Positions 10,240 through 57,075 of a stretch of 64,000 nucleotides of DNA are shown here, piece after piece. The stretch spans positions 17,401,959 through 17,465,958 of the forward strand of contig NC_049987.1 in assembly GCF_000003815.2 (NCBI RefSeq), given 5' to 3'. Source of the DNA: Branchiostoma floridae (lineage: Eukaryota; Chordata; Leptocardii; Amphioxiformes; Branchiostomatidae). A program made the translations under genes and the position numbers. Every line of letters begins with the position of its first letter. Positions within the stretch are counted from its first letter, which is position 1. The notes under the pieces are model-generated. The model made no database searches. It was not told the origin of the DNA and saw only the letters and a program-made list of their open reading frames with translations.

Positions 10240-11394
10240 TTCTTTACCACCGGAAATTATGACATCACGAACTTCCTGTATTCATCTTTAGAGTTAGACA
10301 AGATTTAATCTTATTTTCCTGCTAAGGTGTAAACAGGAAGTACAAAACAAAGAAAAATCAAAATAGTCCCCTCCACACCCAGTATTCTTTTTTGGAGCGA
10401 TATCCTTAAGCGGTTCTTCTTCTACCGGAAGTGACGTAGAATCCCGGATGTCATCCCGAGGGTTTCTGACGAATACTGAATAGCTATTATCCCTGCAGCA
10501 CTTGCGATATTGCTGTGACGTAAGACTACCAAGTATTTACTTCGAATTAAATTATTCTCTCACTATGTTGTAATGTTCAGTGGATAGACTACCCATTAAA
10601 TGATTGGCAACCGAAAACGGTTATTGAGAAATAACGCGGTTACGAATTCTGGGGTGTACCCGATTCCTCAACCCCTCCTACCCTCCACTGTTAATTAATA
10701 AGTCCAAGAAAAAAATGATTGAACCAAACGTCTAGATTTTCACGCATCTAGAATAATAGTTCAAATCTGTAGGTACCTATCTAATAAATCAAGAGTAAAT
10801 CTAGATCTAAAGTAAGAATAGTTATTGTCTTCATAATTCTAAACGCCATTCTAGTCAGTCGCCCTTTCACTGTGACTTTCTCCATTGTTCAGGCTGGGTA
10901 TGATACACACGCCTTTGTGTAACCGTATACCTTCAATGTAAATGTGGTGTAAACATAAACGTAACGTCCGGCCTCCGAAAAACAGAGCTCAGATTGGCGC
11001 GCATCCAGACCTACGCTGAACACGACTTACCTTCTTCTTGATTTTGCACGCGGGCTGTGCTGGTGTGTAGCGGGCAAAAATTTACCCCTGGTTAATAGAA
11101 TGCTCCCGGGTATATTGTGACAGGGGTGGGCTCCAGCCAGTTACACCGGGATACGAACTATCGACGCTGAATCCAGCACAGGTAAAGACTAAAACTTCCC
11201 TATCCCGTTCCAAGAATCGAAGCGACGTCAACTTAAGGAAGTTCCCAAACACGATGCATTACTCTAATTACAGTAAGATTACGATACACGTAAGCTTGGT
11301 AATTATAATAATGAGCCACACCCAACCATCACAGTGCTTAACCTCACCCAACGTAATTTTACCGACGACGCGGAAACGGATCTCTGTTTTTGTG
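10240..11394. other. Intergenic, no gene recognised
   Basis: Upstream flank of the propeller-lectin gene. A few CpG-rich patches lie near 10,960-11,200, but no exon or RNA gene could be supported. Confidence 0.5.
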
Positions 11395-13402
11395 GAACAC
11401 ATACTGTGACGGAACTGTCTTAGGGCAGACACACCCTCATGCTTCGAAAAAGGTGGGCACGCGAAAAACGACACGCCAAAAAAAGGTAACAGTTACTGGT
11501 GCTAAATTCCACAAACACTTACCCTTTTTTCTGTTGACACCTAACAATTTGTAGATTGTAGAATCTTGAGGTTGAGATCTTTAAAAACTCAGTGTCCTTC
11601 TTCTAGCAAAGGAACTATACGGACGACTGAATTCATGAACTGTGCAATTATATTTGAGGCAACTCAGACTTGAACATTCTTAGCATGTGTGTTATCAAGT
11701 TTTTCTTCTGGCCTACAATGACTCAAAAAATTTCAGACTTGGTTGGTTTTATCGAAAATGTTTTCATATGATGAAAATGCGACCAGAATATGAAATGTTG
11801 TCCAAATTCTACGCTATGTAACATATGAAACAATTTTTTGTTATACTTGCACCCCTTTTTTTCAATACTCAAGTCCATACTTGGTGCACGTGACTCAACC
11901 ATCCAGTTTCACAAAATGTCAAGCCTTGGAAAAATGCTTGTCATTCAAGGGACATTGGGCCACTTATAATTCCGTCATGTGATTATTTTTGACTTTTGAC
12001 GGTTGTGACACAATAGAAAACCCCTGTTCTACTAGGTTGTCAGTTATTTGATTAATGAACTTCGCGGGTGGATATTTGATTCAATATGCATTTGTATTCT
12101 GCAATAAGGCATATGGCTATTGACTAATCTTTAAATCTATAAACCGTAAATTTTGTCACCAATATTCAGAAATCATTCAGTTATTAGCTATATATTTCTT
12201 TGATTAGTGGGTAGTGAAAATGCAGAATGTGCTTGTTTCTTCGTTTTCATTGTTTTTGTTGTGCATAGCGTATACGTATTACGAGGACAAACTGAACTGA
12301 ACTGAGCGTATACGTAACTATCCGACTAGCCAGGTTCTGTCACAAAATACTATCCTTTGTAAAAAGACAGAAAATCTAACGTTTTGTCAACTGGGACGCT
12401 AAAATACCATTACCAACGCTTGCTAATTGAGTTGCTATACGAAATAGACGTATGAAGAAGGATTTCTGTGCTTTTAAAAAGACAGAAAGCGTGTTGATTT
12501 ATTTACAGGTTAGCTAAATCGTGACCATAAGAAGAGTAGCCTCAAGCGATAACTTTCGACCGACATTTTTGACCGTGAGTACCCTCTTACAAAGTGCATT
12601 TTGTAGTGTCCCTGCCCTTACTATTCCTCAGTTTACTTTTCAACACAAGCATCTAAAACTGTTAAGACTACATTCGAATAAGAGACAGAAAGTGCATAAT
12701 CTAATGTCAGATGTTATTCATATAAAGACATGAGTATTTGAGTTGGGGTGGGGACAAGGCATCTTCGGTGGTAAACAACACTTAGTGTGCATGCATTTCA
12801 CGTGATGAGGTTAAATGAGGTTATGACAACGCATTGGCTATAGGGTGTATGCCCATGAAGCCACCATATGGTTTCAAGTGGCATGAAAACTCAGCTAATT
12901 AATCTCTTTGGTGGGATTAAAAATTAAGAATACAAAAAACAATGGAGAACATCTTATTTACGCTTATTATATTTTCATTTAATGAGACCAAAGAAATGTT
13001 GACATATCGCAAATAATGTTGATTAAATTACAGTTAAGTATATTTTAGTCGTATATTTTTTTTCAACCTTTATTTAGCCTTGATATATATATAGTTGAGA
13101 CAGTTGAGTACACGGGCTGTTGTTATTGTGTGAGCCGACAACACTTTCTTTGTAGTCAGGGGCTAACTTCATTGTGAGTAACTTACAATTGGTGGGGCTA
13201 AATCGCCAGGGTCTGGAGTGGCTGCCATTCGGCGCTAACTCAAGTGACCTCAATACGAATTGTCCCATTTGCGGCCATAGGAATATAGATTTCAGTTGGG
13301 GTTTGCAGAACACACGACACATGTGAGCTCGCGACCGATAACGTAAGGGGGACAGGGGAGGTTATAGTTACACCTGCCCCCCACGTGGTATATTAGGGCC
13401 CC
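11395..13402. repeat. Tandem duplication, copy 1
   Basis: This 2-kb block matches 14,110-14,232 plus 19,712-21,517 in the same orientation. Shared landmarks include AGAATCTTGAGGTTGAGATC, TTCAGTTATTAGCTATATAT and GGTGGGGCTAAATCGCCAGG. It spans the 3' flank and last 111 coding bases of the cysteine-rich secreted-protein gene. Copy 1 lacks the 5.5-kb insertion of copy 2 and so preserves the empty site near 11,510. Confidence 0.8.
13292..13402 (-). pseudogene. 3' fragment of the C4-like secreted-protein gene
   Basis: On the minus strand 36 codons are open up to TGA at 13,292-13,294 and read GALIYHVGGRCNYNLPC, then the family's PPYVxGRELTC end. They align to the last residues of the intact gene at 21,406-22,985, with changes E to G, N to I and K to N. 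Homology stops abruptly at 13,402, the duplication breakpoint, so no 5' exons exist here and it cannot make the full protein. Confidence 0.82.
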
Positions 13403-14109
13403 TTTTCCTTTGTATTCATTTCAAGGGCTTGAGAGATTGACTTTTTTCTGTAAGAAAATTGTTACGACTTGAATTCTCTTTCAAATGGAAAAGTTGGGTT
13501 AAAGAAAATTGTGGTTTCTCACGATAAAACATCACTGTATTGCAACATTGCTGTGTGTACACATGTATATCTGGACTAGTACTAGCGATGTGTACCTAAT
13601 CGCAACACCATGTACATGTACAAGTACAGATATACTGCTAAAAGTAATTGGTTGCAGAAATCTAAAGGATGTATTTTTGCTGCGCCTTAGATTTTCAGCT
13701 CCAGTGCCCGTTGACAAAGCATTAAACCACTTCCTGTTGCCTTCCCCACTTGCTATCACCTGGAGAGGTTACATGAGGTCAAACATCCCATGGGTGTTCA
13801 TACAAGAACGCCTTCTACCGATCATTTTAACACCTGCAGTGTAGAGAGCTCTCTTAAGTTTAACGAAGGAACAGAGGTTGGCTGAGCGGTCAAGTTGTAA
13901 AAATAGCCGGCCAATGAGCATTTCGTATATTTGTGATAACAATTATAGCAGTAAAGAAGACATTGAAAGGATGGACATACAAAAGAACAAGGAACCAAAT
14001 GAACGAACAAAAATGTAGTTAAAAGGGTATGAAAGAGGCTAACGAGCTTAGAACCCACTTCAACAACAAGTCAACATTAAAAAAAAAAAACATTGGTGGT
14101 GTAGCGCAT
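13403..14109. other. Spacer between duplication copies
   Basis: About 700 bases without recognisable similarity to the duplicated block and no supported exon. An open frame at 13,509-13,844 has no recognisable domain. Confidence 0.5.
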
Positions 14110-14232
14110 ACAGTGACGGAAATTTTACGGCACAGTCACACCCTCCTATGTTTAACAAAAGGTGGTGGCACAAAAAAAGCGGCATGCCATAAAAAGTGTC
14201 CCCCAAATTTTTCTTCAGGTACTAAATTGCAC

Positions 14233-15002
14233 TTTCTGCATCACCCCTACACAGTACTCCCTCACGATGCATTCATACTCTTCACACACACAGAAAAACA
14301 CCAACACAAGTGTTAGGATGGGCGCGAGTGCGTGGACACCGCAGGAAGACTTTTATTTGCCAAAGGTACAATCGTAACGAGAACGGCAGTTCGAAAATGC
14401 AATAGAACACCGAAACATCAAATTCCAAACACGATTATCAAACCAATTCCAAACATATACCAAACATCACGATTTTTCGTAATCGAGTAAGCCAAACCGT
14501 AAAGCACAGCATAAATAGCTGCATACGTTGTTTGCCAGCCACGCAACCCCTAAAAAAACCTCCCGAAAGTACGAAGGCCAAAAAAATGGGGGACGTGCAC
14601 CAGAGCCTTAGCGCAAACAACCAATCTTCTCTGGGGTTTCTTTCTGAAAAGAATCACTCCATGTCCTGAAACACACAAAACATAGTTCAAAGAAGTGATT
14701 ATATTGGACTGTTAAATACAAAACACCAAGTAACAGTCACTTTCGCCAAAGGCAGAAACTTGCTACACTAACAAACATTTCATTACCTTAAACAACGATC
14801 TTGTTGCTTCCTGGGTGTCGTGACAAGCGTCGAATGAACAGACTACTCCTGTAGCACTATAAGTACTTACCATACACCTGTGAATCACGCCCTGTGTGCG
14901 TGATCCCACACCTGTGATACACCTGCGTTACTGCAGAAACTCAATTATTTGCTAATTCGTCACGGTAACGAAGTTAGTTCCTCAAACGCAAATAATTATC
15001 AT
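14233..15002. mobile_element. Inserted unit 1 (770 bp), unknown class
   Basis: Begins with block A (14,233-14,343) and ends with block B (14,800-15,002). Both blocks recur, apparently identically, as the ends of the abutting unit 2. The middle differs from unit 2. Together the units fill a site that is empty in duplication copy 1. No reverse transcriptase, transposase or helicase was recognised. Confidence 0.7.
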
Positions 15003-18000
15003 TTTCTGCATCACCCCTACACAGTACTCCCTCACGATGCATTCATACTCTTCACACACACAGAAAAACACCAACACAAGTGTTAGGATGGGCGCGAGTG
15101 CGTGGACACCGCACCGCATCGCGTCGAACGAACAAATCACGGGAAAGTTTCATGCAAGATTAAAAGTCTATCGCCATATAAAACAGCCGACCTCTCCTTC
15201 AATGATCCACCTTCCGTACCTGTTATACAGTCTGTCTGGAAAACCTTCTGATAAAAGGGAATGTAGCCCCAAACAAGAAACATCATTAACAACAGTCTTT
15301 TGCATGTCGAGGTCCAACTCTCCAGCTGTATTATAACTAGGACGCCCAGAAGTGCTTAACTTGGAGCCTGATTTGGTTCTTGTGACACTTCTGAAAAAGG
15401 AATCTGTCAGATGAGAGATCTATACAAGCCAATGTACAATACTTCTGCAACATGTTGACTGGGCAGTTGACCTTTCCTGTGCGTGCAATAGGTGTCGAGC
15501 TGCCATCTCTATACTGATCAGTCTTCCTTGATCCTAAAACAAACACAAACACTTCTCAGATAGAGAAAAATTACATGATAACCGTTGTAAGATTCGATGT
15601 TCCTCAGCAAACCTGCATAAGAAGTCGAGAGAAAAGTAAACGTCCTTATAGAACCAAGTTTGAATAAATTGTGTTATGTTCCTGTGCAAACATGACCCAA
15701 AGTGTGTTCCTGTACCAGCATGACCAACATATCAGGAGTTATTGGGCATATGAGCTCGTCTGTTGGCGAATGCAGCCTTCTCTATGGAAGAAACAGATGA
15801 AAAATGTTGCATCACAAGTTCCCATCAACACAATGCTACATAAAGAGGAAGTGCTTTAAAACTACCACTTTTGGTAATATACTGGCAAACTCACGCCACT
15901 TGTTGAACGCAGCCCTTTATTGAGCTACAGTTTTAGGTGCTCTCGAAGCTACAGAAAGTGGGTAATTTCCCGGCCAGCTCCATCAGATGTGTATCCATCA
16001 GCTCTGCAGCGTCTTCTCAGATACCCAGCTTGTACAAGTCAGCTCAGACGGGAATATGTAGGAAGAGAAATAATAAAAACAAATGTTAATTATCTTCAAC
16101 ACAAAAATAAGTATGCTGAATACTAATTACTCCTATACTAATCCTGATTCAAGACAAATCGTTACCGTGGGCGCTACAATAAAAAGCCAACACAACACAG
16201 TCACTGGGCAAATCACAGCATTCACATAGCTGGGCAATCCACGGCCTGCCCTGGGCATCAAGAGCCAGCATTAACATAGCTGGGCCATACAACGGCCTGC
16301 CCTGCCTTAGTGTCCACTCATGACACTATTGCATCACACAAACACCACAATGTCTTCTCACTGAAGAACTCTTCAATCAACTTGTGTGCATTTTCATCAC
16401 ACTCACTGGGCATCAAATGACAGACAGCATAAACATAGCTGGGCCAATCAACGGCCTGCACTGGGCATCAAGTGACAGCATTAACATAGCTGGGCCATTC
16501 AACGGCCTGCCCTGCTTTAGTGTTCCATCATGACATTATTACATCACACAAACACCACAATGTCTTCTCACTGAAGAACTCTTCAATCAACTTGTGTTCG
16601 ATTACTTCACACATAAATCACAAAGTCTTCTCTCCGAAGAACTCTTACACCAACCTGTGTGAAATGATGTCAGACATACTTCACGAAATCTTCTCATTGA
16701 ATAACACTTCAACAATCTAGTGTGTCATTACATCAGACATATACATCACGATGTTTTCTCACTGAAAAACACTACAGTGAACTTGCGTATCATAACGCCA
16801 AACATACATCACAAAGACTTATCACCGAAAAAACATCAATGAACTTGCTTGTCATAACATCACAGTCTTCTCACTGAAGATCGCTTCAACTATCTTGTGT
16901 GTCGTTACCTCAGACATACATCACGGTGTCTTCTCACTGAAGAACATTGAAGAACTTGTGCGCAATTACATCAAACTTCACATGTGAATTTCTTCTCATT
17001 GAAGAACACTTCAATGAACTAGACATACATCACAATGTGTTCTCACCGTAAAACACCCAAAAGCACTTGCGTATCATTACGCCAGACGTACATCACAGTC
17101 TAATCACTGAAGAACATCTCAACGAACTCGTTTGTCATAATATCAGACAAATCACAAAGTCTTCTCACTGAAGAACTCTTCAACTTGTGTGCAATTACAT
17201 CAAACTTCACACTTGTAAAACAATGTCAAATTCTTCTCATTGAAGAACATTTCAATGAGCTAGACATACATCACGATGTGTTCTCACCGTAAAACACCAT
17301 AACGAACTTGCGTATCATTACGTCAGACATACATCACAAAGACTTCTCACTGAAAAACACCTCAACAAACTTGTGTGTTATTACTCCAGACGTACACCAG
17401 TCTTTTCACTGAAGAACTGTTCCACCAACGTATGTCCAATTCTTCTCACTGAAGAACACTGCAACCAACTTGTGTTCAAATTACGTCACCCATCACCGTG
17501 AATTGTCACTGGAAAACATTTTAAAAAAACAACAACAACAACAACATTATCTCTCAGTTAAACTTATCAGCAGAAATGCGTAAAGGCAGTCATTCTATCA
17601 CCAAATTGTGCCGTTTCTAAAGAGGTTCCACGATATTCTTAAATCAACACATGTACAAAAATGTCACTTGTACATCATCATTAAATAACGTTTACATTCA
17701 CATCGGTACAGTAATAGCGTCAATCCTGTACTTACAACTTTCCCCGACACTTAAGTTGAAATCAATCTGACCAGCAGAATTCAGTCATAGTTTTGTCCAG
17801 CCAAGTCTAAATACGATGAATCATCTTGTAAACAAGGAGAAAAAAAAACAACTCTGGAGTTAACCCAATTTTCCGTGAAAAGCAAATCTGACAACTTGGT
17901 GAAGACTTAACTTTCTATCAAAAAATTAATTCAGGTAGATCGATTTCATGCTCATCCTCATCAGCAAAATTGCTCAAATGAACTGCTTTCCCCTCACTGA

Positions 18001-19711
18001 CCTTGGTATCCAAGTCAAATCAAGAACTAATGTTTTTATCCTTCAAAAAACTCAAAGCAAAATCGTGTGTCTCTTCACACTGTCAGTCATCACAATTCTC
18101 ACAGCGACATTATGTTCACAATGCCATATCACACATTATCCGGTCATTTCCTTTTATCAAACCACTGAACACAAAATATCTCTTAGTTCTCTCCCAGTAG
18201 CACTCTGTACAATCTGTGTCATTCCAAGTACATTGAACATAACTTTCTAAATCACAATATAACCACCATGACATTCCGAAGTCACATAGGAATACACCAA
18301 ACGCGCATCTTCCGAAACTGGAAACAATTCATTGAACATAAAATGCTCATAAAGAAATTTTTTCTCATAGCTATGTAGTCTAGCACTTTACAGTACCATA
18401 ATTAACGTGATTTCATCACAGAATACATCTATCTCATCATAATCCTAAAACCAACCAGGCATTCAAACCTACCTGATCTTCGATAATAGCCACGTGTATA
18501 ACAGGCATTGTGTATGTCTCTTTCTACAGCTAAAACAAATCTACTAAAACAGAATACAACATGTTCACATTGTATCGATGCCAAGAACTTAAACCCTTAC
18601 CAACTGACCATTGCTCTTGGCCAACATAATATAGACACATTTACCTGGATAAGAATCAATTTCGAAATTACCTAAGCAAACGTGCCCTGCTTACGTTTTC
18701 CCAAATTCTTTTACTGCTCAAGTCCAGACACTGGGACATAACGTTACGTTTGAGCACAAATTAATGTGCGTACCATAAAACAAGAAAAAGTCTTATTTAC
18801 CTGATGGATGCGTAGCTATAGAAAAGGGATTGCATACAAAAGGACACTTTGAAACTTCTTAAATGGGTCCAAGCTTCCAAGATCAAAAACTGCAGTGGAA
18901 ACAAAAACACGGTTATTGACAGCACTGGCATTATCATGCAAACCTGGATGCATTCCGAAGCCCCAGCCTGTGGAATTCGAAACAAAAATCAAATCAAACT
19001 CTCTTGCTTGAATGCAATAGATGCACACGCTTCTGTAAGTACTTATTTTGTGGAAAGTAATCCTCAATTTTTCTCCTCTGTAAGCAATTCATAATCCGGG
19101 ATTCTTGTTGCTTGAAGAAGAGCGATACCAAGTACCTGAAAAGAAATAGCTGGAAAATTCAATTGCCTGGTTAGCGGCTTCCTTATCCCTCCATTCAGTA
19201 TTTCTTGCCTCTCTTAGCTCCAATGCAAGTACAATTGTTGAACATACGCTTTTGATTGCAATGTTATCCGCTACCTCCTTCCGAAACTATTCTAAAACGG
19301 TTAGCCAGCCGGCGTCTGATTTATCAGTCATTAGAAAACCTTTCTATCGGAACGAAATTCCTCACCTTCATTCTAGGAGTCCAGAACTGTCTCTTTGTGT
19401 TCTTTCGTCAGTTCAGTTTAGACATGGCGAACAGAAAAGAGCGGTTGTAAACTTCAATGGCCTGGTTGACCGCCTGTGCCTCCATCTTGATGCGAGAAGT
19501 AGAAAATCCTTGTTGCTTCCTGGGTGTCGTGACAAGCGTCGAATGAACAGACTACTCCTGTAGCACTATAAGTACTTACCATACACCTGTGAATCACGCC
19601 CTGTGTGCGTGATCCCACACCTGTGATACACCTGCGTTACTGCAGAAACTCAATTATTTGCTAATTCGTCACGGTAACGAAGTTAGTTCCTCAAACGCAA
19701 ATAATTATCAT
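15003..19711. mobile_element. Inserted unit 2 (4.7 kb), head-to-tail with unit 1
   Basis: Starts with block A (15,003-15,113) exactly where unit 1 ends and finishes with block B (19,509-19,711). The interior holds a degenerate 60-odd-bp tandem array (16,230-17,520) and otherwise AT-rich non-coding DNA. Block B contains a small hairpin, ATCACG...CGTGAT, about 90 bases from its end. Shared ends with unrelated middles and head-to-tail tandem placement recall Helitron-type non-autonomous elements, but no TC/CTRR termini were seen. Confidence 0.65.
16230..17520. repeat. Degenerate tandem array, about 60-65 bp unit
   Basis: Around 18 diverged copies of a unit with CTTCTCACTGAAGAACACTT, then AACTTGTGTG and ATTACATCAGACATACATCA. 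The first part is overlain by a roughly 210-bp higher-order duplication containing CATAGCTGGGCCATTCAACG (16,255-16,395 and 16,465-16,600). No long open frame runs through it. Confidence 0.75.
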
Positions 19712-21405
19712 ATACACTTACCTTTCTGTCCGAAGCTTACCCTGTGCGGCTTATAGAATCTTGAGGTTGAGATCTATCAGAGAAAACGCACTGTCCCTCT
19801 TCTTGCAAAAAAACTAGACGGACGACTGAATTAATAATCTGCGCAACTTGAGTAAACTGCGCAACTTGAGTAACTTAGACTTAAACATTCCTTTGATGTG
19901 TTTTACCAAGTTTTTCTCCTGTGTAGCAGTGACTCACAAAATTTCCAGACTAGGTTGTTTTCATCGAACTGTTCTTTTATGACGCAAAAAGCGACTGAAA
20001 ACAAAATTTTGTACAAACACTACGTTACGTAACATTTGAAACAAGTTCTTGTTATACTTGCACCCCTTTTTTTCAGTACTCATGTCCATACTTGGTGACT
20101 CATCCATTCAGTTTTAAATATGCCAAGCCTTGGCAAAATGCTTGTCATTCAATTGACCTTGGGTCACTTGTAATTTCATCATGTGATTATCTTTAACTTA
20201 ACATTGTGACACAATAGAAAACCCCTGTTCAACTAGGCTGTCAGTTGTATGATTAATGAATTCCGCGGATGGATTCAATGGGCCTTTGTATTCTATAGTG
20301 AGGCATATGGCTTTTGACTAATCTTAATCTTGAAAACCATGGCCACAAATTTTGCAACCAACATTCAGAAGTCATTCAGTTATTAGCTATATATTTCTTT
20401 GATTTGTGGGTAGTGAGATGCAGAATGTGCGTATTTCTTCGTTTTCATTGTTTGTTGATGTGCGTATCGTATACGTTGCTATCCAACTAGCCGGGGGCTG
20501 TGACAAAATACTACCCTTTGTGAAAATGCTATTGCTAACGCTAGCTTGCTAATTGTGTTGGTATATGAAATAGATTGAAAATACGTATAAAGAATCGATG
20601 GTTGATTTAGAGGTTAACTAAACGCACGGTGACCGTAACAAGCGTAGCCTCAAGCGATTCCTTGTTATAATTTCAGACGACATTTTCGACCGTGAGTACC
20701 CTCTTACAAAGTTCATTATGTAGTGACCCTGCCCTATTTCTTTTTTCAGTTTACTAGCTTTTCTACACAAGCAAACTTCTGGAGATTAAAAACTGTTAAC
20801 ATATTAGATCTACATTGGAACAAGAGATAGACGCATTCATAGTTTATGATGATAAACAATATTCATATAAAGACATGACCGTCCTTAATTGGTTGGGGTG
20901 TGGGGGGAGGCATATTCGGTGGTAAAGAACACTGAGTGTGTATGCATATATCACGTGATGAATCTAAATCAGGCTAAATATATATCTCAATGACAACACA
21001 TAGTCTATAGGGCGTATGCACATGAAGCCGTCACATGATTTCAATTGGCATTAAAACTGAGCAAATCAATCTCTTTTGTGGAAAAGAATAAACGAAAAAC
21101 AAAATCTTATTTAGTCTTATTGCATTTTCATTTAATGAGACCAAAGAAATGTTGACATATCGCAAATAATGTTGATTAAACTACAGTTATGTATCTTTTA
21201 GTCGTATATTTAAGTGCATGGGCTGTTGTTATTGTGTGAGCCGATTACACTGTTTTCGAAGCCAGGGGCTATCTTGATTGCGTGTAACTTACAATTGGTG
21301 GGGCTAAATCGCCAGGGTCTAGAGTGGCTGCCATTCAGTGCTAGCTAACTCATACGATCTCGATATTATAAAGACAGTAATTGTCCCAGGTGCGGCCAAA
21401 GGACT
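19712..21405. repeat. Tandem duplication, copy 2 (3' flank of intact gene)
   Basis: Matches 11,511-13,291 with small insertions and deletions throughout. It is the downstream flank of the gene ending at 21,406; the homology continues into its last coding bases to about 21,517. Confidence 0.8.
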
Positions 21406-22985
21406 CTACTTGGGGTTTGCGGAACACACAACACAGGTGAGCTCACGGCCGTTAACGTAAGGTGGACAGGGGAGGTTATAGTTACACCTGCCCTCAACGT
21501 GGTATATCAGGGCCCCGTTATCGTTAGCCTCGCTCCCGAACTCCCCCTCGGCCCCCTCGTCCACGCAGATGAAGTCGGCGCGGTGGTGGGTATACTTCTC
21601 CGTCATGAGGTAGCCGATGTACTCCCGCGTCCAACCGCTAGGGCACGTCGTTTTGGCGGGAATCATGAGGGTGGTTGCCCTGGGAACGAGGCAGACGGAG
21701 CACAGAGCGTCGGTCTGGTGGAGGTCGAGTAGAGGACCGTGCTGGTTGGTCTGGAACTCCCCGCCGGCAAGCCGTGCTCGCTCGCCGTTCAGGCTGTCGT
21801 CGTAGCTGTGCCACTCAGGGTCGGGCGGCAGGCAGAGGAAGTTGGAGCCGCCGCCGGCATTACCGTACCAGGTACCGGCCACAAAACCTGCGAAAAACAA
21901 ACAAACAAACAAGAAAAAAATATTCAATGTCGTCCATGACCAGTAAGCAAAAAAAAAAAAAACACATCAACACCTTCAAACCATCACAAACCTTTGTTTT
22001 CGATTCATGCTCTAACTAAAGAAGTTTTACTTTCAAGAATTAAAATATAACGGGCATTCATATCAAAAGCAACGGTTACACGAGTATGAATCACGACCAC
22101 AAGCCATTTAGAAGTTAATTTACTACAAATTTTCAAACCGAAATATGTTTTAAATATGTACTAAAATATTTCAAATATGCACTACTTTTAATTGCAACCC
22201 ATGAATGCGTTTTCTTATGTTTTTGTAGCCCTACTTAATGTCAAAGTTTACCTGAGTAGATCAAAGCAGCTCCGGTCCCCACTGGACAGCTGCTGTTCCC
22301 CCAGCGGACGTAGTTAGAAACTCCTGTGTGAAACCGACAATTTTAAAGCAAGCGACGTTCTATATCGTTCTGTACATTAAATGAACATTTCTCACCAATG
22401 TGTAGACTTTTTTTCACAATTACATACATACTGAAGTGTAACCGTAGTAAAACGAGCCTTTTATCTTCAATGACTGCACGTATTTTCCAGTCAAAACAAA
22501 ATTACTAGTCTGATAAAATCTGGCTTATATCGGCCCGTCCAACATTGCCTACCTCTGTGAGGAGAGGCCAGTGACAGCCATGGACAGCGGGGTTTGCGTC
22601 ACACAGATTACAAAAAATACCATTTTGTCTTTATTTTTCGTTTAGAAAACTCAATATTATTTCAATGATGTCAGAAAGAAAATGCCACGGCTGCTTTTGA
22701 AACCACTGCCTTTCAAATGCTGCCACAGAAACATAGTCATCAAAACGTTGACAAATTTGAAAGTCTACGACAACTTCATACAGATACCCATGCTATCCTC
22801 ACTGTCAAGGTTTTGCCGGGTATTCTCGATATAGAAACGTTTCTATAGCATATTTTACCGGTTATCTTTCGTTTCGTATCGTCCCCGACAACAACAAATC
22901 AAACATCCTTTGGCTTACCCGAGGCGCTGCATGTAGCAAATGCCACCGCCAAAAGAACAGTCAATGTCTTCCCCAGCATGATCAT
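21406..22985 (-). CDS. Secreted ten-cysteine protein, short-chain-collagen-C4-like domain
   Basis: Three exons, 22,919-22,985, 22,252-22,323 and 21,406-21,887 (TAG), join in phase to 206 aa. The N-terminus has two in-frame ATGs (22,985 and 22,979) before a signal peptide (MLGKTLTVLLAVAFATCSA). The mature protein has YVRWGNSSCP, FLCLPPDPEW, CSVC, LMIPAKTTCPSGWTREY, FICVD and a C-terminal RCNYNLPC...LTCVVC, ten cysteines in all. This is the domain found with collagen stalks in short-chain collagen C4-like proteins of invertebrates (recognised from memory), but there are no Gly-X-Y repeats here. Biochemical role unknown; an extracellular, disulfide-bonded protein is inferred. It is transcribed divergently from its paralogue at 24,636, and its 3' end is duplicated at 13,292. 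Confidence 0.82.
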
Positions 22986-41200: not shown

Positions 41201-44200
41201 TAGCTGACACATAGTACATACTGTTAACTGAGTTTTATTCAACTTGTGAGGAGTAAGGGATAAGTGTAATATTGTAACCTGTTAGTAAGAGTACTTAGTT
41301 GTGAGGAGGGAAAGAGATGAGTGTTATATTGCAACCTGTAAGAGTAGTGAGGCGGATAGAGATAAGTGTGATAATATCAGTGTAACCTGTAAGAGAAGTG
41401 AGGAAGGGGATAGAGATTAGTGTTATACTGTAAACTGTAAGAGTAATGAGGGGGATAGAGATTTATTGTTATACCGTAAACTGTAAGAGTAGTGAGGGGG
41501 GTAGAGATTTATTGTTATACCGTAAACTGAAAGAGTAGTGAGGGGGACAGAGATGAGTGTTATACCGTAAACTGTAAGAGTAGTGAAGGGGATAGAGATG
41601 AGTGTTATACCATAAACTGTAAGAGTAGTGAGGGGGATAGAGATTTATTGTTATACCGTAAACTGTAAGAGTAGTGAGGGGGATAGAGATGAGTGTTATA
41701 CCGTAAACTGTAAGAGTAGTGAAGGGGATAGAGATTAGTGTTATACCGTAAACTGTAAGAGTAGTGAAGGGGATAGAGATGAGTGTTATACCGTAAACTG
41801 TAAGAGTAGTGAGGGGGATAGAGATTAGTGTTATACCGTAAACTGTAAGAGTAGTGAAGGGGATAGAGATGAGTGTTATACCGTAAACTGTAAGAGTAGT
41901 GAAGGGGATAGAGATTAGTGTTATACCGTAAACTGTAAGAGTAGTGAAGGGGATAGAGATTAGTGTTATACCGTAAACTGTAAGAGTAGTGAGGGGGATA
42001 GAGATTAGTGTTATACCGTAAACTGTAAGAGTAGTGAAGGGGATAGAGATGAGTGTTATACCGTAAACTGTAAGAGTAGTGAGGGGGATAGAGATTAGTG
42101 TTATACCGTAAACTGTAAGAGTAGTGAAGGGGATAGAGATTAGTGTTATACCGTAAACTGTAAGAGTAGTGAGGGGGATAGAGATTAGTGTTATACCGTA
42201 AACTGTAAGAGTAGTGAGGGGGACAGAGATGAGTGTTATACCGTAAACTGTAAGAGTAGTGAGGGGGATAGAGATTAGTGTTATACCGTAAACTGTAAGA
42301 GTAGTGAAGGGGATAGAGATGAGTGTTATACCGTAAACTGTAAGAGTAGTGAGGGGGATAGAGATTAGTGTTATACCGTAAACTGTAAGAGTAGTGAAGG
42401 GGATAGAGATTAGTGTTATACCGTAAACTGTAAGAGTAGTGAGGGGGATAGAGATTAGTGTTATACCGTAAACTGTAAGAGTAGTGAGGGGGACAGAGAT
42501 GAGTGTTATACCGTAAACTGTGATCATTATGATGATATAACCTATAAGAGTAGTGGGGAGGGGGAGATGTGAGTGATATTATCCAATGTTTGTATAATAG
42601 TTATGTGTTATCAATGAACAGTAACTACCAGTATCATGGCAGCATGACAGATGGAAATTACAGTAACATGTTTTCTGTTTATGGACATGAATTGCTATAA
42701 ATGTTGTTAATAATGCCCTAATTTGCATGATAATAGCAACAATATTATGATATTTAGCAAGATGATATCTGAAGTAGGAATGAGGGTAGTTTTGAATATT
42801 CAGCTCAAAAGGACTTTTGACTGAGGTTATGCCAATGACATATTACAATATTATACTACTTGTGCTACTAAACACCTTGATTGCATAATTAATGTCCGAA
42901 TATTACTAGTATGTTCCCTTTGACAAACTTGGTACGTGGTATAGGGAGGTTAGCTAAACATGTCAATATAATGAATTATATCCAAGTATATCCTGGATAC
43001 TAATTAGGACCGAATGAGCATAATCATGATAATTTGGACTATTTCTCTCATAATTAATGCTATGGATGTCATATTGGAGGTGAAGGGAAGGTGCATACAG
43101 CAAAATGTGAATTATGTTAGTGAGTACTTCATGTGCATATTTGATGCAGAAACTGCTAATTTCTTCTGGTCAATGGTAGGGATTTCCTATAAGACATGTA
43201 GGTAGCTCTAGGATAGGTAAATACAATGGCATGTGGGTAATGCTCATGATGACCTTATTTCCATTTTAATGCAGAAATTCATTAATGATTCCTTTTGTGG
43301 TAAATGGGAGGGACTTAATGGTGGAGACATAAGATTAAGAAGCTTGACAAATGGCCAATTCCAAGAAGTATGTGTTGTGCTACTTAGCATCTAATCTGCA
43401 TAATAGATAATGACATTTTATACTTTCTTTATTACTGAAATATCATGCACTTTGTTCAAAATGTTACATTTCTATATAGTTGGCAGTATAGTCATTAGGA
43501 TGTAACAATGATTAGTCATTGTGAATGAAGATTCTTGATATTTATATTTCATAACATACTATGAAATATCATGTTTTATACAGGTGATGTTGTGCTGTGG
43601 ATCTGAGGAGGGGGACAGCTGTTTTAGCCAGTGACATCATTTGGCTTGATGGGAATTAGACAAACTTGGCCAAGCAACCACCTGTCAGCACATCAAAACA
43701 GTCCCATCCATTCTTACAGAGTTTAGAACCCTTCCCAAGCTACCTACTGTCTTTACCAGTAACATTTTTTGTAGTTTTCAGGGGTCTTTCACACCTCTCT
43801 AAACAACCAAAATTGACATAAAGCCCAGCAGCAGCCATGTCTGATGAAAGGTCCTTGGTCAAAATGGGAATGTCTGCATGTTCTAGCACTAGCAACCATT
43901 CATTTTATTCTAACATCATAATCAGAAACAATCCACAAATTAATCTTCACAAAAATTTGTTAATGACAATAGACTATTATGTACCTTTTTGGGACATGTC
44001 ATTGAATTCAGTAAAGCACATTAAAACTTTGCACTGTGCTATTTGCACCAGTGGGCATTTTGACATACTGAGAAACTTATGAAAGCACTTGTTTGGTCTG
44101 TTTAGGAACAGATAACTACAAAACAAACCATGTTTGATTCATTGTTAGACAAACTCAGCACTGATTGTTAAACAATGGTTTCTTAAAATTTGTCTAACTA

Positions 44201-48177: not shown

Positions 48178-49051
48178 ATTTACAGGGACCAAAATTGGAT
48201 TTGTGTGATCGTTGATTTTATGATTGAAACAAAATGCAATAGGTAATGTAAAAGTATGACTTATACAAGACAACAAAACGCACAAGAAATTCGTTGGAAA
48301 AATTTTATAAAACGAATCGAATCAACGAAACATCATATCACAACCAGAGTATTTTTATTCCTGTATTTAAGAAGTGCAATAATGTACGTGACACTGGTGT
48401 GATAGCGTAGTGTCACAACATATCTATGTACAAATGTAACTCTACTGATTTATTGTCCTTATTTGACAATACACAAATAAGAAAATTGATCGGAAGTGCA
48501 CTCTTTTGCGCATTTTGTCTCTCACCAATTGTCATTTTAAAACATAATTAGGACTGAATTTTAGATGCTTTACCTGACCATAAAAAAAACGAAACATGAT
48601 TTTTTTTCAAAATACCAATTAACGACGTCCATACGAATTTGTTATTTTCTTCGTCAATTTACTTTGGTCATGACATTTGAAACTCTTCAGGCAACAGCTG
48701 AGACCATCAAAAATGTTTACAAGAATTGGGAGCCGTTCATGAAGATGGTGGAGATTCACGTCTACATTATTCTCTCAAAATTTGGCGGTCATAGAAAAAG
48801 TCGTTTAAGAGTTGGAAGGGGCGAGCCTAAAAAATTAACCACCACCATTTCCAGAATATGTGATATATAATATGCTGTGTGAGTCAAAAAGCTGAGTCAC
48901 GTGTAAATAATTGTGACATGTAAAACATACACATTCTAACACAGCAACCACTGCCATGATGGCACACTTCAAAATTTCTGAAAATAATTTCATCAGGTTG
49001 GTAGATCATAATATAGGAGTTATCCTTTACGCAACCAGTTGATCTGACCTT
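48178..49051. other. AT-rich intergenic sequence
   Basis: No exon, RNA gene or element recognised between the foldback MITEs. Confidence 0.5.
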
Positions 49052-49354
49052 GTTTCGATGCCTGTCAGACATCTTCCGTAATGCTTTTAACTGGAGATCT
49101 GCTTCTCGCCGCTATATATGTAGCCGGTGTATAGGTGGCGCTTTTGCGGCGAGAACACAATCCCAAACGTGGCTGAGTTTGTACGTCCCCCCCTTTATCA
49201 AAGAAGCACTGTCGATAAGAAATGAACCGTGACGAGGGGGGTACAAACTCAGCCACGATCGGGGTTGTGTTCTCGCCGCAAAAGCGCCACCTACATCGGC
49301 TTCATATACCGGCAAGAAGCAGAACTCCAGTTAGCAGCTCAGAGGCATCGAAAC
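49052..49354. mobile_element. Foldback MITE, 150-bp arms
   Basis: The arms begin GTTTCGATGCCT and end AGGCATCGAAAC. They include GGTGGCGCTTTTGCGGCGAG paired with its complement, and the TGGCTGAGTTTGTAC arm. Nearly the whole element can fold back on itself. Confidence 0.78.
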
Positions 49355-49416
49355 GTCAGCTAAGGTGAGATTAACTAGTTGGGTAAAAGAACACCCCTAT
49401 ATACTTCAAAATTTCT

Positions 49417-52400
49417 TCAATATATCATCATCGTCGAGGCACTTTGTCCGAGAAACATGGCTACCACCAGTGGCAGGACCAGGATTACAAAGACCGGAGC
49501 CGGAATTCCGGGCGTTCCTCGGCTCACGACAGGTTTGTAAGACTCGCAGATTCCATTCTGCATGCAGTTGAGGATGACATTGGCCTGGTCAATCCCGGAA
49601 AGGTACCTACCATTGACACAAGACATTAGCATTACTGAATGCAGCATTTTTACCTCCTTGAGAAATAAAGGTGTTGTTGTCGGTTTTCGGTGTACTTGTC
49701 TCTTTGTGTGTTCTTGTCTGTCTGTGCTTCTCTCGTGTTTTTTTTTTTGTATGGATCACGATGATATTTGGGTACGTCTTAGGAAGACGAAGGACAATGT
49801 CAGTGTGTGCCCCTAAGCTTGGTAGTACAGCAGAACTTTATCTTTTGTCTTGGACATGCTGTGGTCTTGTTTTTTTGGTGGCAGATAGCTTTTTGATATA
49901 AGTACTAAGATTACATAAAAATAAATTACACGATATTCTTTAAAACGCGAATTTCTTTAGTGGCCTAGCTCGTTTTTACCAGATTTACAACGTTACATTC
50001 TGCTCTTCGTGTGCTGTGCCAGATAATGTTCAATATTCTCAAGTTTTCAACTCACCCTCCTTGCAGGTACCCGTTGTATTTTGCGTGTGTTGCCTCTCCT
50101 CCGAAGTACAAGCGTCCGACAGGTGCCGCCAGCTTCTCAAAATCTTGCGTATTCACGTGAACAGGCCAGTTGGAGTAGGCACCAAAGAACAGTGGGTCAG
50201 TCAGCCATCTAGAGACAAAGAAGCAGTAGGACAGAGGTAAACAGCCGTAACTATCAAAGTTAGAAAAAGTTGTTGAATCAAGCATAATTCATATTCAGGA
50301 TATCACATTATATTGAAATTGTCTCTTTATAGGATATCACATTATATTCAAATTGTCTCTTTATAGGACATCACATTATATTCAAAGAGTACCTCTCTTC
50401 TTAGATGGGCATACCTAATTGTCAAAGCCTGCTTGAATTACCTTTGTAGGCTGTACCTCTCTTCTTTGATAGATGGGCATGCCTAATTGAATTAACTTTG
50501 TAGGCCAATAAATGACCTAGACAAGCAAAATACGATCTGGTGGGTCATCAGAGATATGAGAGCCAGACAGCGGTGCAGAAAAAGTATGGTGCTATGAAAA
50601 ATGTGTGGTTCTATTTTATGCAAATGAGTTCATAGTAGCTCACATTTTTCATAGTACCACACTTTTCTGCACTATGGGGATATAAACACAGGGCTCTGAT
50701 TGGCTAAGGGGTAGTGGCCATGTTGTAATGTAAACAATATATATTTCTATATTCTAACCAGGCAATATTTCCTCACTGTATCATATAGTTCATGAAACAG
50801 GAACGGGACAAGTCCAGACCTGGGTACGAGGATGCTCTCCGGTTCAGGGATGTTGTCGCCGTACATGTTCTTCAGGACAGCCATCACCTCCTGTTTGGTC
50901 TCCTCGTCAGACTGAAGTTCAATCGCTTGTACCTCGTTGGCCAAGGCTGAAACCATCAGAATATTCGTGCCTGGTGGAAGAATTATATGCATGTATATGC
51001 CTTGGTAATATGTTGACATTGTGGTTATGGTAAATGACAAATTGAATAAAGATTAAAACTTCTATAAATGTTCCGGGTTCGATTTCCTGACAGCCCCTTG
51101 GGAATGGCACTTTGCACATATTTCCTCCTTGAAAATGAGCAAAAATGAGCGGGACTATCTCACCAAGTGGAGGCACGTTGGAGGCACTGCGGAGTTTGTT
51201 CACGAATGCACTTTTGCGCTACTTTAGCCACTTTTCTCTTGCACTCTCACTGACGCGAGGCACTGTTGCGTCTCAAGTGCAGATGAACGGGTTATTGAAA
51301 ATCGCAGCGTTGTCAAGTTATCAAAAATGTTTAAGATGCATCACAAAAGAGATTGATTAGAAAATATAAAAGGGTATTCACTTATGATACTTGATATTTG
51401 CTTCTTGTTACTGTCATGGTGAAGGCACGATGGAGGCACTGCGGAGGCATTTTACCACTTGCGTTGGTTTTTAAAATTTTTTTAAACACTGCCTTTGTTG
51501 GTTGCACGTTGGATTTCGTTGGAAGTACGTCGGGTTTTCGTTGGAGGCACGTTGGATTTCGTTGGAGTCACCTTGAAGGCACGTTTGTGTTGTCGAAATC
51601 AACAGTGCCTCCAACGTGCCTCCGCTTGGTGAGATTTGGTTATGTACATGCTATCGGATGGGACGTGAGGCCGGAAGTTCTGTGCCTTAGGAGAGTGCTA
51701 TTTCTCGAGCATGTGAAAGAACCCACCACACTTATCAAAAACTGCATTTGGTTATCCCAGTACGTCAAATGGTCTGCATGCCTTTTTCCGTTAAGCGTTA
51801 CGAGCCATTTTAATTCACCGTTAATCGTTATTAGCGATCCGCTCTTATTCAACGTTAAGCGTTATCTGTATATTATTTGTGAAGCGTTATTGGTCGTTTT
51901 AATTCAACGTTTTAACGTTGAATTAAAACGATCAATATATTATATACGCTTAAAGGCGTTATTTGTTATCCTGAATTCACCGTTAAGCGTTACCAAGAAA
52001 TTCTTCATAACCCATTATATTCACGAAGTCAAACACCAGAGAGCCCCTGAAATGCAGGAACTATGGCGTTTCAAAGGGTCCAGATTTCAAAATTTCGAAA
52101 AAAAAAAGACACAGAAAATTTCAATAGCTCAAATTCATTTACAGTTTTTATACAGTCAAAGTCAGTCACGCACAAATTATCACAAAAGTACAAATACGGA
52201 ATAAATATCTGCTCAGGATATGTAGTCCGTTTTGATGTAACATAGACTATCACAATTCCACCAGGTGTCATTATACCGCCACCTAAAAAACGTTAGTAAA
52301 GACGTCTCCCCAAGATTGTCCTGAACACCGAATGTTAAATATCTTAAATGTAATACAATCCAGATATGTAGGTGTTGAAAACAATCTTGAGAAGGCCTCT

Positions 52401-55400
52401 ATAACAACGTTATTTGAGATGGCGTCATAATGACACCTGGTGGAATTATGAGAATGTATGTTATATGATCGTGTGCAGATTTTATTCAAAGACATATGTG
52501 GAACTCTATCGTCACACTAACCAGTTGGGAAGAACCCTGGTGCCTCAAGGTTTTGCCATATGGCATACTGGGGCCAAAATGACCCTGCATACATAATGTA
52601 TTCGCTGTCATCCCAGAACTTGTGTGGAAACTTCAGGAAAATCTTGCAGTGTTGTCCCATCCGAAACTGGTAGATCTCCTCAACCTGTGGATGGAGGCAG
52701 TTAGCATCAAGGTAAAAGGAGAAAAAGATGAAGTGTACTGTTCGACAACATAAAACGATTGAAATCTCAAGATTTAAACTTCAATGGTGATGTAACGGAT
52801 ATCAATATATATCAATAGGTGAGTGGGTGAGCGAATAATGAGTGAGTTGGTGGGAGAGTAGCCTTTGTTTCCACAATCTCTCGCTGGCTGGGGTTGATGA
52901 CCTTGGGTGCGGGAATTGTAGGGTCGGCCGCTAGGAGCGCGATTTTAGTCAGGCTAGTGGGAGATAGAGTGAGTAGGTTGGTATTTTTAGCGAGTGAGCG
53001 AGTAAGTGATTGAGTGAATGAGTGAGTGAGTGCGCGAGTGGGTGAGCGAGCGAATGAGTGAGTGAGCGAGCGAGTGAGCAAGTGAGTGAGTGAGTGAGTG
53101 AGTGAGCGAGCGAGTGAGCAAGTGAGTGAGTGAGTGAGTGAATTGGTGCAATGAGTGAGTGAGTGAATGTGTCAGAGAGTGAGTATGATGAAGACTGACT
53201 CCCCACCTTCCAGTCAGGTAGATCAGGTATGAAGTCGATAACTTCGTTCTCCAGCACGCCGATACTGACAGTCATGAGTCCGTACTCCCCTCGGTAGATG
53301 GACCCGTCCGTGGTAGTAAACGTTACTTCCGTATGATCCGTCCAGTTCACCGTCTCGACCACTTTGTTCAACTGGAGGCGGGGGTCGTTTGGTGACAAAA
53401 ACTCGTTTGACAACCTGGAAAATTAAAAGAAAGCAACTATTGAAATTATAGCTTTGATAATCTTGAATTATTTGAATTACTTAAGGAAAATGTCTGAATT
53501 ACGAAGTGCAATTTGAAAAAATTTATCTGACTTTTACGAAATGCAATGCATTTTGCATCCAATAACTGTGAAAATGCATCTAATAACTTTTGTGACAACA
53601 TAGGGCTTGTTCATAACAGCCAGAAAACTGTTCGTTACCAAGAAAACTGTTCGTTGTCCAGAAAACAATAAATATTATAATCATAATTGCAATCCAATTT
53701 CTTGCTGTATTATCTCCAAAGTAAAACAAAACAGCTGTCGTTCAACACACATCAGTCCTAAAATCTCAAAGGCTACCTACTAGTATGGCTAAATACTACG
53801 TCCACGACATGTTTACAAGAAGTATACGAACAACTGGTTCCGTACGGCAAAGAAAGTCATTGATAGCTTGTCGAATTATCCTGTTTGATGACAGTGAAGT
53901 ACTTAAACCAAGACATGAGATTACGTCATACCTGTCAACAATATGTCCAAAACCTCGTTGGTCAGTGACGAAGTAGTCCTCATCCGAGAAGTCTTCGGCA
54001 ACCCGTCCGGTGTTGTTTAGTGATGTCACTTCCGCTGGGTCCGCGTATTCAAACTCATAGTCAAAATACTCTAGGATCCTCTCCAGTGGGGTCTTTGCCT
54101 TCCAGCCTCCCAGTTTCAGTGCGACTTCCAATGACACGTCTGGCAGTCTGAAATGATACAGTCAACAAAGGAATCATCCTGCAAAAAGGAAATAATGTAA
54201 AAGCTAGGTACAACATCATATCCTTTTTGCATTTTGCGACTTGCAGTCGCAAAATGCCTTGTCGCTAGAGTATTCGCTGTTGTGATGTTGAGATGTTGGA
54301 ATCTTGGAATGAGCGGACCTGTCCAATCTATGCCATGCATTTGTATACCTGTTAAAACAAGCCCTGATAATATGCTGGAACTAGCTCAGTGGTAAAGTTT
54401 ACGCGTTGTAAACCAACGCTTCGGGGCCGATTCCGTGGACGGAAAATTTGTCAACTTTCTTTTTTTTATTTTTTTTACATCCATTAAAGTACTAGTAAAC
54501 AATGCTTTTGTCTTTTGACCAGAACATTTGGGACCTTCTGTTATAGTTCTGCATTTTTCCGCTGTTGGGATATTTGAATGAACGAACAGACATGTATTAC
54601 ATAAAACATTTAATGTCTCTAACTATATGTCGTTCTAACTTTCCTTAAAATGCCCATACAACATCTATATCACATAATTACACGAGAAGAAACTGATTTT
54701 CTTGAAAATAATTGCATACAAGCTGCATGATAAAAAGTTTCACTAAACATATTCATTTTAATTTCCTGGACGTACCTCATTTGCATATTTGTGAATCTCT
54801 CCATGCGACCATATCAGGTTTAGTTACTCTTTTTCTATTTATAAAACATTCTAATAACTAGAAAAAAACGTTCACATACGCAAACCTTGGCAAAATGCCA
54901 GCCTTTTTAAAAGCACTTGTTTTCAATAGTTCTGCTAGCTGTAGAGAGTTGAATTTCTAAGGAACCTGTTTTAAAACCTTGAGACAACTCTTCAAAAAGG
55001 GTGGCTCGAGTGAGTTCAAATCACATCTTAAGATCAACAAACAGTGTAGTAGGTTGTAGCCCTTGCACTAAAAAGTGTTAGAATCAAATCAAGAGTGAAA
55101 TCCGTCTTGCACGATTACATATATCATGCTAATTGGTACACTGGTTAAATTTAAAAAAAAATCATAATCACGTGTCGTTGCGAATCTGTCCCCTCCAATT
55201 TTCCAGATAATCTTGTGCTGTTGACAGCCTCTCAGTCTGTGCCTCCGCCTGGTCGGTTACGTCATTTCCTGTTTTGTTGCGAACGACGAAGTCATCGTAG
55301 TTGGATTCCTAGTACACGTGTATAATGTAACGCTTGTAGTTACGTTAATTAACTTACCACTCTAATCGTGGCATATATCCGAGCAAATTCCCTTCCAAAC

Positions 55401-56584: not shown

Positions 56585-56650
56585 GAAGAAGAAAGAAGAA
56601 CTTTATTGCTCGACAATTGTAACAGGTACAATGTATGGCAATCTGTGTAT
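56585..56650 (-). mobile_element. LINE 3'-end fragment
   Basis: On the minus strand CCATACATTGTACC...GAGCAATAAAGTTCTTC ends in a CTT-rich tail, matching the core of 6245-6440. It lies directly against the acceptor of the first PAO coding exon. Confidence 0.45.
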
Positions 56651-56878
56651 AACATCGACTATCATAATTCCACCAGGTGCCATAATACCGCCACGTGAAA
56701 TGAAAATGTTAGTATAGAGGTCTTCTCAAGATTGTCTTAAATACCGAATGATAGCTTTCGTAAATGTAATACAACTCAGATATTTAGGTGTTGAAGACAA
56801 TCTTGAGAAGGCCTCTATAACAACGTTTTTTGAGGTGGTGGTATAATGGCACCTGGTGGAATTACGCGATCGTATGTT
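56650..56878. mobile_element. Foldback MITE family X, copy 2
   Basis: Arms ATAATTCCACCAGGTGCCAT / ATGGCACCTGGTGGAATTA; same family as 52,238-52,463. Confidence 0.75.
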
Positions 56879-57075
56879 GCATGGGAGTTGAATTATGTAC
56901 TATTGCGAAAGTCTAACAACTACAACTAATCTAAACCTATCTAATGTAACAGCATAAACAATCTAGTAAATATTATACAAGCTAATACTTCAGAAAATTA
57001 TGTCAATATTGCATTGTCTCGTTTTTGCAAGAAGTTGTAAATGAATGAAATGAAGCTGTGATAGCTAGCCACTAG

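Follow-up and report, generated by a model that had tools for sequence, protein, structure and literature searches.

A composite repeat block in Branchiostoma floridae is very probably one decayed tyrosine-recombinase retrotransposon with split direct repeats

In a 64,000-nt stretch of the Branchiostoma floridae genome (contig NC_049987.1, positions 17,401,959 to 17,465,958; hereafter the window), a 5,479-bp composite block carries two pairs of direct repeats around two interiors, and its candidate identity as a retrotransposon is the subject of this study. Block A (111 bp) lies at 14233-14343 and 15003-15113, and block B (203 bp) at 14800-15002 and 19509-19711. The two copies of each block are 100% identical, with sharp borders on both sides and 0 bases of further extension. 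The letters are as the original prediction described them: two units, A-m1-B and A-m2-B, share identical ends and abut at 15002/15003. No additional copy of A or B was found in the 64-kb window by blastn at E 1e-3 or by nhmmer. The features are listed below; the coding relative lies on contig C10 at loci L025 and L033, and the tblastn E values refer to a search space of four sequences.

11392..11907, no strand: paralogous empty site, junction 11512/11513
14233..14343, minus strand: A1, terminal repeat, identical to A2; in the coding (minus) sense the 3' terminal repeat, 'B2' in retrotransposon naming
14344..14799, minus strand: m1, 456 bp between the terminal and internal repeats; present in five composites and in solo copies
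14352..14357, minus strand: AATAAA, possible poly(A) signal, 8 nt inside the m1/A1 border
14800..15002, minus strand: B1, internal repeat, identical to B2
15003..15113, minus strand: A2, internal repeat; B1/A2 junction at 15002/15003
15114..19508, minus strand: m2, decayed coding interior; longest minus-strand frame 90 amino acids (aa)
15198..15658, minus strand: tyrosine recombinase C-terminal remnant with stops and frame changes (tblastn with the L033 recombinase, E=1e-20)
15747..16055, minus strand: recombinase N-terminal remnant (tblastn E=2e-14)
16190..17530, no strand: minisatellite-like array of ~63-bp period in m2, outer borders approximate
17875..18446, minus strand: RNase H/methyltransferase remnant (tblastn E=2e-15)
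19263..19403, minus strand: remnant of gag-like open reading frame (ORF) 1 (tblastn E=3e-8)
19408..19485, minus strand: short ORF MEAQAVNQAIEV..., at the ORF1-start place of the coding relative (MDAEAVTAAIEL...), similarity judged by eye
19509..19711, minus strand: B2, terminal repeat; in the coding sense the 5' terminal repeat, 'A1' in retrotransposon naming

Further copies were sought in the 513-Mb assembly. The unit-1 query gave 48 matches (40 of 103 candidates scored) and the B/A junction query gave 43 (40 of 90 scored), so that the counts are lower bounds. B/A junctions occur at at least five loci: the window (WIN), C14:13.73 Mb (L010), C9:9.84 Mb (L011), C1:22.93 Mb (L012 and L029, together the C1 copy) and C2:4.49 Mb (L014). 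The ~63-bp-period minisatellite of m2 is also found in the other four composites. A composite that recurs elsewhere in the genome with exact junctions is neither chance nor a one-off misassembly. We give next to no credence to an assembly artefact with collapsed repeats or wrongly joined units. The assembly does have gaps, and L014 lies between N runs, but the five composites stand on four large contigs, four of them extend beyond gaps and carry different variants, each in both repeats, and the empty site described below fits the composite exactly.

The tandem predicted from the letters is thus real, and its short unit A-m1-B also stands alone on C6 (L009, 99%) and C10 (L013). Loci L015, L017 and L018 represent one older solo A-m1-B insertion carried in segmental duplicates. 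Two shorter forms were observed: L024 consists of A, 14 bp and B, and L026 of A, the start of ORF2 and gag, and B, which reads as a shorter deletion derivative. Independent insertions share the A1 terminus TTTCTGC..., and both it and the other terminus, ...ATTATCAT, recur in insertions whose flanks are unrelated, slightly altered in some of the older ones. The 600-bp flanks of WIN, L010 and L011 and the 5' flank of L012 are mutually unrelated.

The left flank of the block provides an empty site. Positions 11515-13405 are a 72% copy of 19714-21519, a ~1.9-kb tandem duplication of flanking DNA. The joined flanks (13832-14232 and 19712-20112) match 11392-11907 at 73% (5e-83), and a closer alignment is gapless over the junction, with 15 bases on the left and 11 on the right (GGTACTAAATTGCAC/ATACACTTACC versus GGTGCTAAATTCCACAAACACTTACC). 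This gapless paralogous site indicates that the 5,479-bp block entered as a unit at a C/A target, in one clean event that neither duplicated nor removed target bases, and that it did so after the flank had been duplicated. The earlier statements that there is no target duplication, and that the block is mobile DNA but neither a terminal-inverted-repeat nor an ordinary long-terminal-repeat element, are both borne out. None of the nine tested copies with both termini has a target duplication, in a search made only near the assumed ends, so that L021 and L022 may hide one. In L010, whose B2 lacks the last 20 bp, a 6-bp flank match is within chance.

We then compared the repeats within and between copies, using four of the five composites (WIN, L010, L011 and C1) and leaving out L014. 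A1 equals A2 in each of them, at 111/111 positions and 444/444 in all. B1 and B2 agree at 203/203 positions in the window, 183/183 in L010 (over the length of its shortened B2), 203/203 in L011 and 168/169 in C1, or 757/758 in total. Compared with one another, these four copies show 2-4 differences per 111 in A and 1-4 per 169-203 in B. The C1 copy has an identical 34-bp deletion in B1 and B2, 8.2 kb apart, which is present in none of 16 other aligned B sequences; L023, one of the 16, has deletions of its own, unlike those of C1. By simple arithmetic, about 20 differences are expected from independent evolution since the common ancestor of the copies, and 1 is seen. Matched pairs within copies are predicted if the ends are rebuilt from the internal copy, and are not predicted for tandem rolling-circle elements. 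The idea of two separate abutting elements does not survive this comparison, since the composite recurs as one unit whose A pair and B pair each match inside a copy.

An ordinary tandem of two insertions, or a mobilised pair, could have had its A1/A2 and B1/B2 equalised later by gene conversion, which we regard as very unlikely. Such a history would agree with the solo A-m1-B copies (L009, L013 and others) and with the m2-like interiors found between one A and one B (L026 and the C10 copy); recombination of split repeats, however, would be just as likely to yield the solo forms. The composites share the same order and the exact junction, and with four of four testable copies identical, rapid conversion would be needed each time, over up to 8.2 kb.

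The original prediction proposed a search for a relative with Rep/helicase or another enzyme. A coding relative was indeed found at C10:20.40 Mb, and it carries RNase H/methyltransferase and a tyrosine recombinase, not Rep/helicase. It is bounded by the same ends, with B' at C10:20,404,750-20,404,960, then the frames, then A'. The ORF beside that B (L025:6485-7177) is gag-like, starts MDAEAVTAAIEL and contains a CCHC motif towards its end; the zinc knuckle PF00098 scores 17.4 bits (curated cut-off 20.8). The second frame, a reverse transcriptase (RT) start at L025:7229-7450, runs into Ns. Past the gap lies an RNase H-like and Dam methyltransferase region (L033:805-2100); PF05869 Dam reaches E 1.9e-8 and 34.6 bits, above its cut-off of 28.1, downstream of RNase H, for which the models give E=0.0093 and 0.047, below cut-offs. 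The tyrosine recombinase (L033:3038-3628) matches PF00589 at E=6.7e-6 and 26.4 bits (cut-off 27.1), with the motif HSLRSGG...HGRW visible in its sequence. A copy of A, 85% identical, closes the element at L033:3674-3786. PDB searches gave one chance-level match (E=0.5) or none. The relative (C10:20.405-20.410 Mb) adjoins a BTB-domain-like gene, named by eye.

This relative reveals what the long interior is. The DNA of m2 is 60-65% similar to L033/L025 over long stretches, and in tblastn its minus strand matches the recombinase, the RNase H/methyltransferase region and the gag-like protein. The L033 recombinase as genome query gave 39 matches, including all five composites, with the window match at C9:17417156-17417522. 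On the basis of these alignments, the window's long middle is read as a decayed gag/RNase H/recombinase region. The two middles had been called unrelated, which is right for m1 (456 bp) and m2 (4,395 bp) compared with each other (chance-level similarity only, best E about 2), but m2 is related to a retrotransposon coding region. Scanned directly with Pfam, the interiors (ten ORFs, six m2 frames and four of the six m1 frames) yielded neither RT nor recombinase nor Rep/helicase, and m1 had no match at E 0.01 in its four scanned frames. Pfam is silent on m2 because m2 is too decayed, and only the comparison with the coding copy revealed its content. Sub-threshold Pfam matches (Netrin receptor E=0.0093, Dis3l2 E=0.027, others weaker) were taken as chance. 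Exact-pattern scans of viral and prokaryote collections, in which animal sequence is not expected, gave 0 matches.

The longest minus-strand frames of m2 measure 90 aa in the window, 90 in L010, 134 in L011 and 132 in L012 (a part including extra DNA), and the longest in the coding copy 237, 432, 206 and 197 aa; frame length thus separates dead from coding copies. In the recombinase region, 13 indels relative to the coding copy occur in all four composites, and 11 of these have lengths not divisible by three, while 12 others are private to one copy and 3 common to two; at ~65% identity single events in this alignment may be misplaced, and their direction is not polarised. Shared frame-shifting indels in copies with unrelated flanks (both sides in three copies, the tested side in L012) indicate that the interior was most likely broken before the copies reached their sites. 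The composites were probably copied after the coding region died, and the enzymes of the coding relative would have moved them in trans.

The ends allow a different interpretation, namely two non-autonomous Helitron2/Helentron (rolling-circle) elements in tandem with the same ends and different captured interiors. We at first favoured it for an 8-bp inverted repeat and a 3' hairpin. Inverted termini had been reported absent, which is correct overall (0 inverted repeat pairs of minimum length 25 in 12000-22000) except for these 8 bp: the left end TTTCTGCA is the reverse complement of TGCAGAAA, which lies 63 nt from the right end and 3 nt upstream of a hairpin with 10-bp arms. Helitron2-like are also the 5' T, the asymmetric position of the terminal inverted repeat, 0 bp from the 5' end, and a possible 5' hairpin, as well as the lack of target duplication and the satellite interior. 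At the internal B1/A2 junction, the 8-bp arms form the outer arms of one imperfect inverted repeat across the junction. In 20,000 shuffles, the repeat arose 106 times, the hairpin 87 times, the 5' hairpin 1,046 times and the inverted repeat within 10 nt upstream of the hairpin 0 times; in 5,000 shuffles, the counts were 49 for the inverted repeat, 7 for the hairpin and 0 for both. These features were picked after seeing the sequence, so the shuffle tests overstated the Helitron2 case. In the sections of the literature that bear on these points, an asymmetric terminal inverted repeat, a terminal hairpin, a central satellite and no target duplication in full-length copies are described as traits of Helitron2/Helentron/HINE too (PMC3627910, PMC4067079, PMC7492417), and 8 bp is the lower limit for the Helitron2 terminal inverted repeat (PMC3627910). 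Helitron2, too, is described with truncated copies that carry target duplications while full-length ones do not, but there the other end is lost (PMC3627910).

The copy comparison and the coding relative led us to drop the Helitron2 interpretation, which now appears extremely unlikely. The repeat pairs are the same within each copy. The interior is a decayed retrotransposon, and its same-ended relative carries gag-like, RNase H/Dam and recombinase regions, while Pfam finds no Rep/helicase in the scanned frames of m2 (six) or m1 (four of six). Instead of the T-rich Helitron2 target (TT or after TTTT), we observed C/A at the window site and varied left flanks in other copies. A canonical Helitron (5'-TC, 3'-CTRR, A/T target) was also rejected, since the ends are TTTCTGC...ATTATCAT and the target is C/A; the absence of TC/CTRR termini had been noted correctly.

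We conclude that the 5,479-bp block, read in the minus-strand sense, is very probably one non-autonomous retrotransposon of the tyrosine-recombinase kind, decayed and with split direct repeats. It is best filed, by a published feature key, as a non-autonomous PAT-like element (DIRS order). In this key, Ngaro and VIPER drop out because of the methyltransferase domain and DIRS1-like elements because the split repeats are direct, and the two traits together point to PAT-like. The split direct repeats A1...B1A2...B2 are present in the decayed composites, and the coding copy is without the internal pair. Dam after RNase H (in L033), the tyrosine recombinase and the lack of target duplication agree with PAT-like elements as well; the window copy keeps only remnants of the methyltransferase domain. 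For two further PAT-like traits, a zinc finger in Gag (as in Pat1) and RT/RNase H, the coding relative shows a CCHC motif and RNase H similarity that score under the model cut-offs. The element is of a known kind, and the suggestion of an undescribed type has to be given up.

Known PAT-like elements (Pat1, Toc, Kangaroo) are described with the layout A1-B1A2-B2, a methyltransferase after RNase H, a tyrosine recombinase and no target duplication, as seen here (PMC4157794; PMC3266345). Unlike them, the split-repeat copies here are dead inside and contain a minisatellite, and the last two repeats stand 456 bp apart, with a possible poly(A) signal in between. PAT-like families are reported from green algae, nematodes, L. 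gigantea, Nematostella and S. kowalevskii; for Branchiostoma floridae, the part of the same source available to us lists DIRS1-like families and names no PAT-like family (PMC3266345).

Split direct repeats (A1, B1A2, B2) are described for PAT, Ngaro and VIPER (PMC4157794, PMC8547959, PMC9210276, PMC6681497). Ngaro-like elements, which occur in amphioxus (PMC2632668), share with our element the split direct repeats and, going by its coding relative, probably the gag, RT/RNase H and recombinase, and one Xenopus example has repeat pairs of 236 and 152 bp that are 100% identical within the element (PMC9210276). Two points set Ngaro apart: it lacks the methyltransferase domain of the coding relative, and its layout is described as A1-[ORFs]-B1A2B2 (PMC8547959). 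VIPER belongs to another host group and is also without methyltransferase (PMC3266345). Its non-autonomous derivative SIRE, from trypanosomatids, consists of A2, a short segment and B2 alone, like A-m1-B and the A-14bp-B of L024, and is the nearest described non-autonomous split-repeat case in the literature examined (PMC6681497). DIRS1-like elements share the order, the coding domains and the lack of target duplication, and their 3-bp termini (CTT/CAT, TTT/TAT) resemble TTT/CAT here (PMC3266345). They have inverted terminal repeats and internal complementary regions, whereas the repeats here are direct.

The arrangement of the parts suggests how the ends may be renewed. In the minus-strand order, the element reads rc(B2), rc(m2), rc(A2)+rc(B1), rc(m1) with the possible poly(A) signal, and rc(A1), where rc denotes the reverse complement. 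AATAAA lies 8 or 9 nt before the m1/A1 border (+9/+10 of m1) in 13 of 13 loci examined among the 16 with m1, three of the 13 being one duplicated insertion, and a GT-rich stretch follows it in A. Within 40 nt of the m2/A2 border AATAAA is absent in five of five m2 starts. This placement implies that a transcript would include the internal A2-B1 pair and stop close to the m1/A1 border, and its start may lie near the B2/m2 border. The terminal A1 and B2 would then be missing from the RNA, and the internal pair would be the sole full template for restoring both. During reverse transcription of such an end-less transcript, the internal B1A2 junction would template the missing A1 and B2, the DNA would circularise with a B-A junction, and a recombinase supplied in trans by the coding relative would insert the circle without target duplication. 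Circular DNA and recombinase insertion without target duplication are part of the DIRS-order model (PMC3266345). On balance, we lean towards a dead-interior element that is still copied in trans, with both repeat pairs rebuilt from one source in each cycle; the repeat borders would then mark the transcript ends, and the repeat lengths the untranscribed ends.

Several observations weigh against the split-repeat interpretation. The scores of PF00098 and PF00589 are both just below their curated cut-offs, and most of the RT of the coding relative falls in an N run; the RT start has no tblastn match in the composites. The C10 copy has a single A and a single B without the internal pair, and intact frames and split repeats together were not seen in any copy; we infer that this form is what A1 x A2 recombination in a split-repeat element would leave. 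Stops per frame do not separate the composites (10-23) from the coding copy (14-20) in the aligned recombinase region, because the coding copy, which reads there in two overlapping frames, changes frame. Repeat identity could partly reflect assembly consensus or gene conversion. The ends have Helitron2-like features that split repeats do not need, and this likeness may be a coincidence or a recombination site. The C1 composite, which stood outside the target-duplication test, has ACATG on both sides, which may be chance. Finally, three of seven A-end-only copies have target duplications (53, 22 and 9 bp), which recombinase insertion does not explain.

The A-only loci L027, L028 and L030-L032 are short and truncated. 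Target duplications flank three of these five: L027 (C14:13.917 Mb, 53 bp, near a kelch-like gene named by eye), L028 (C6:19.159 Mb, 9 bp) and L032 (C1:18.287 Mb, 22 bp). Such copies look like the products of a second, less precise insertion route.

Other copies show variations of their own. L012 (C1:22.92 Mb) has ~3.9 kb extra within m2, with two similar long ORFs ~1.2 kb apart, which suggests an internal duplication. L014 (C2:4.485 Mb), between N runs, reads m2, a shortened B/A junction (B 1-29, A 83-111), m1, B, A and m2, and could be a longer tandem or a misassembly. At first appearance it was a circularly permuted copy; in its place between N runs it proves nothing. We also notice seven 81-83% matches to exactly unit-1 positions 34-314 and one to 34-294 (C2:8.286 Mb, C15:8.421 Mb, C8:22.016 Mb and others), which appear to be a related family with the A/m1 region but without the terminal 33 bp.

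In base composition, the plus strand of m1 and of most of m2 has a C-over-G and A-over-T asymmetry that the 1-kb flanks lack; only the minisatellite and the right part of m2 show it strongly. The C-over-G value is -0.215 in m1 (19 of 536 456-nt windows elsewhere equally skewed), -0.218 in the right part of m2 (0 of 446 2-kb windows as skewed) and -0.086, not unusual, in the left part (50 of 446). Elsewhere in the window, ~27 copies of a 45-bp minisatellite with 93% matches, open in more than one frame, occupy 41246-42521. Near-palindromic repeats lie at 52235-52466 and 56648-56882, at 49011-49402 and at 941-1121, two of them related to each other; they are possibly foldback elements or similar to miniature inverted-repeat transposable elements.

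Our findings remove a candidate new transposon type and put a testable case in its place. They also expose an annotation trap: an element that inserts cleanly and combines short repeats with a hairpin and an asymmetric inverted repeat mimics a tandem Helitron2 until copies are compared. Dead elements at unrelated sites, with shared frame-shifting changes and with repeat pairs matched within but not between copies, are a natural experiment on end renewal in split-direct-repeat retrotransposons. If the proposed mechanism is true, the comparison of these copies would directly support a replication model whose basis is mostly anatomical.

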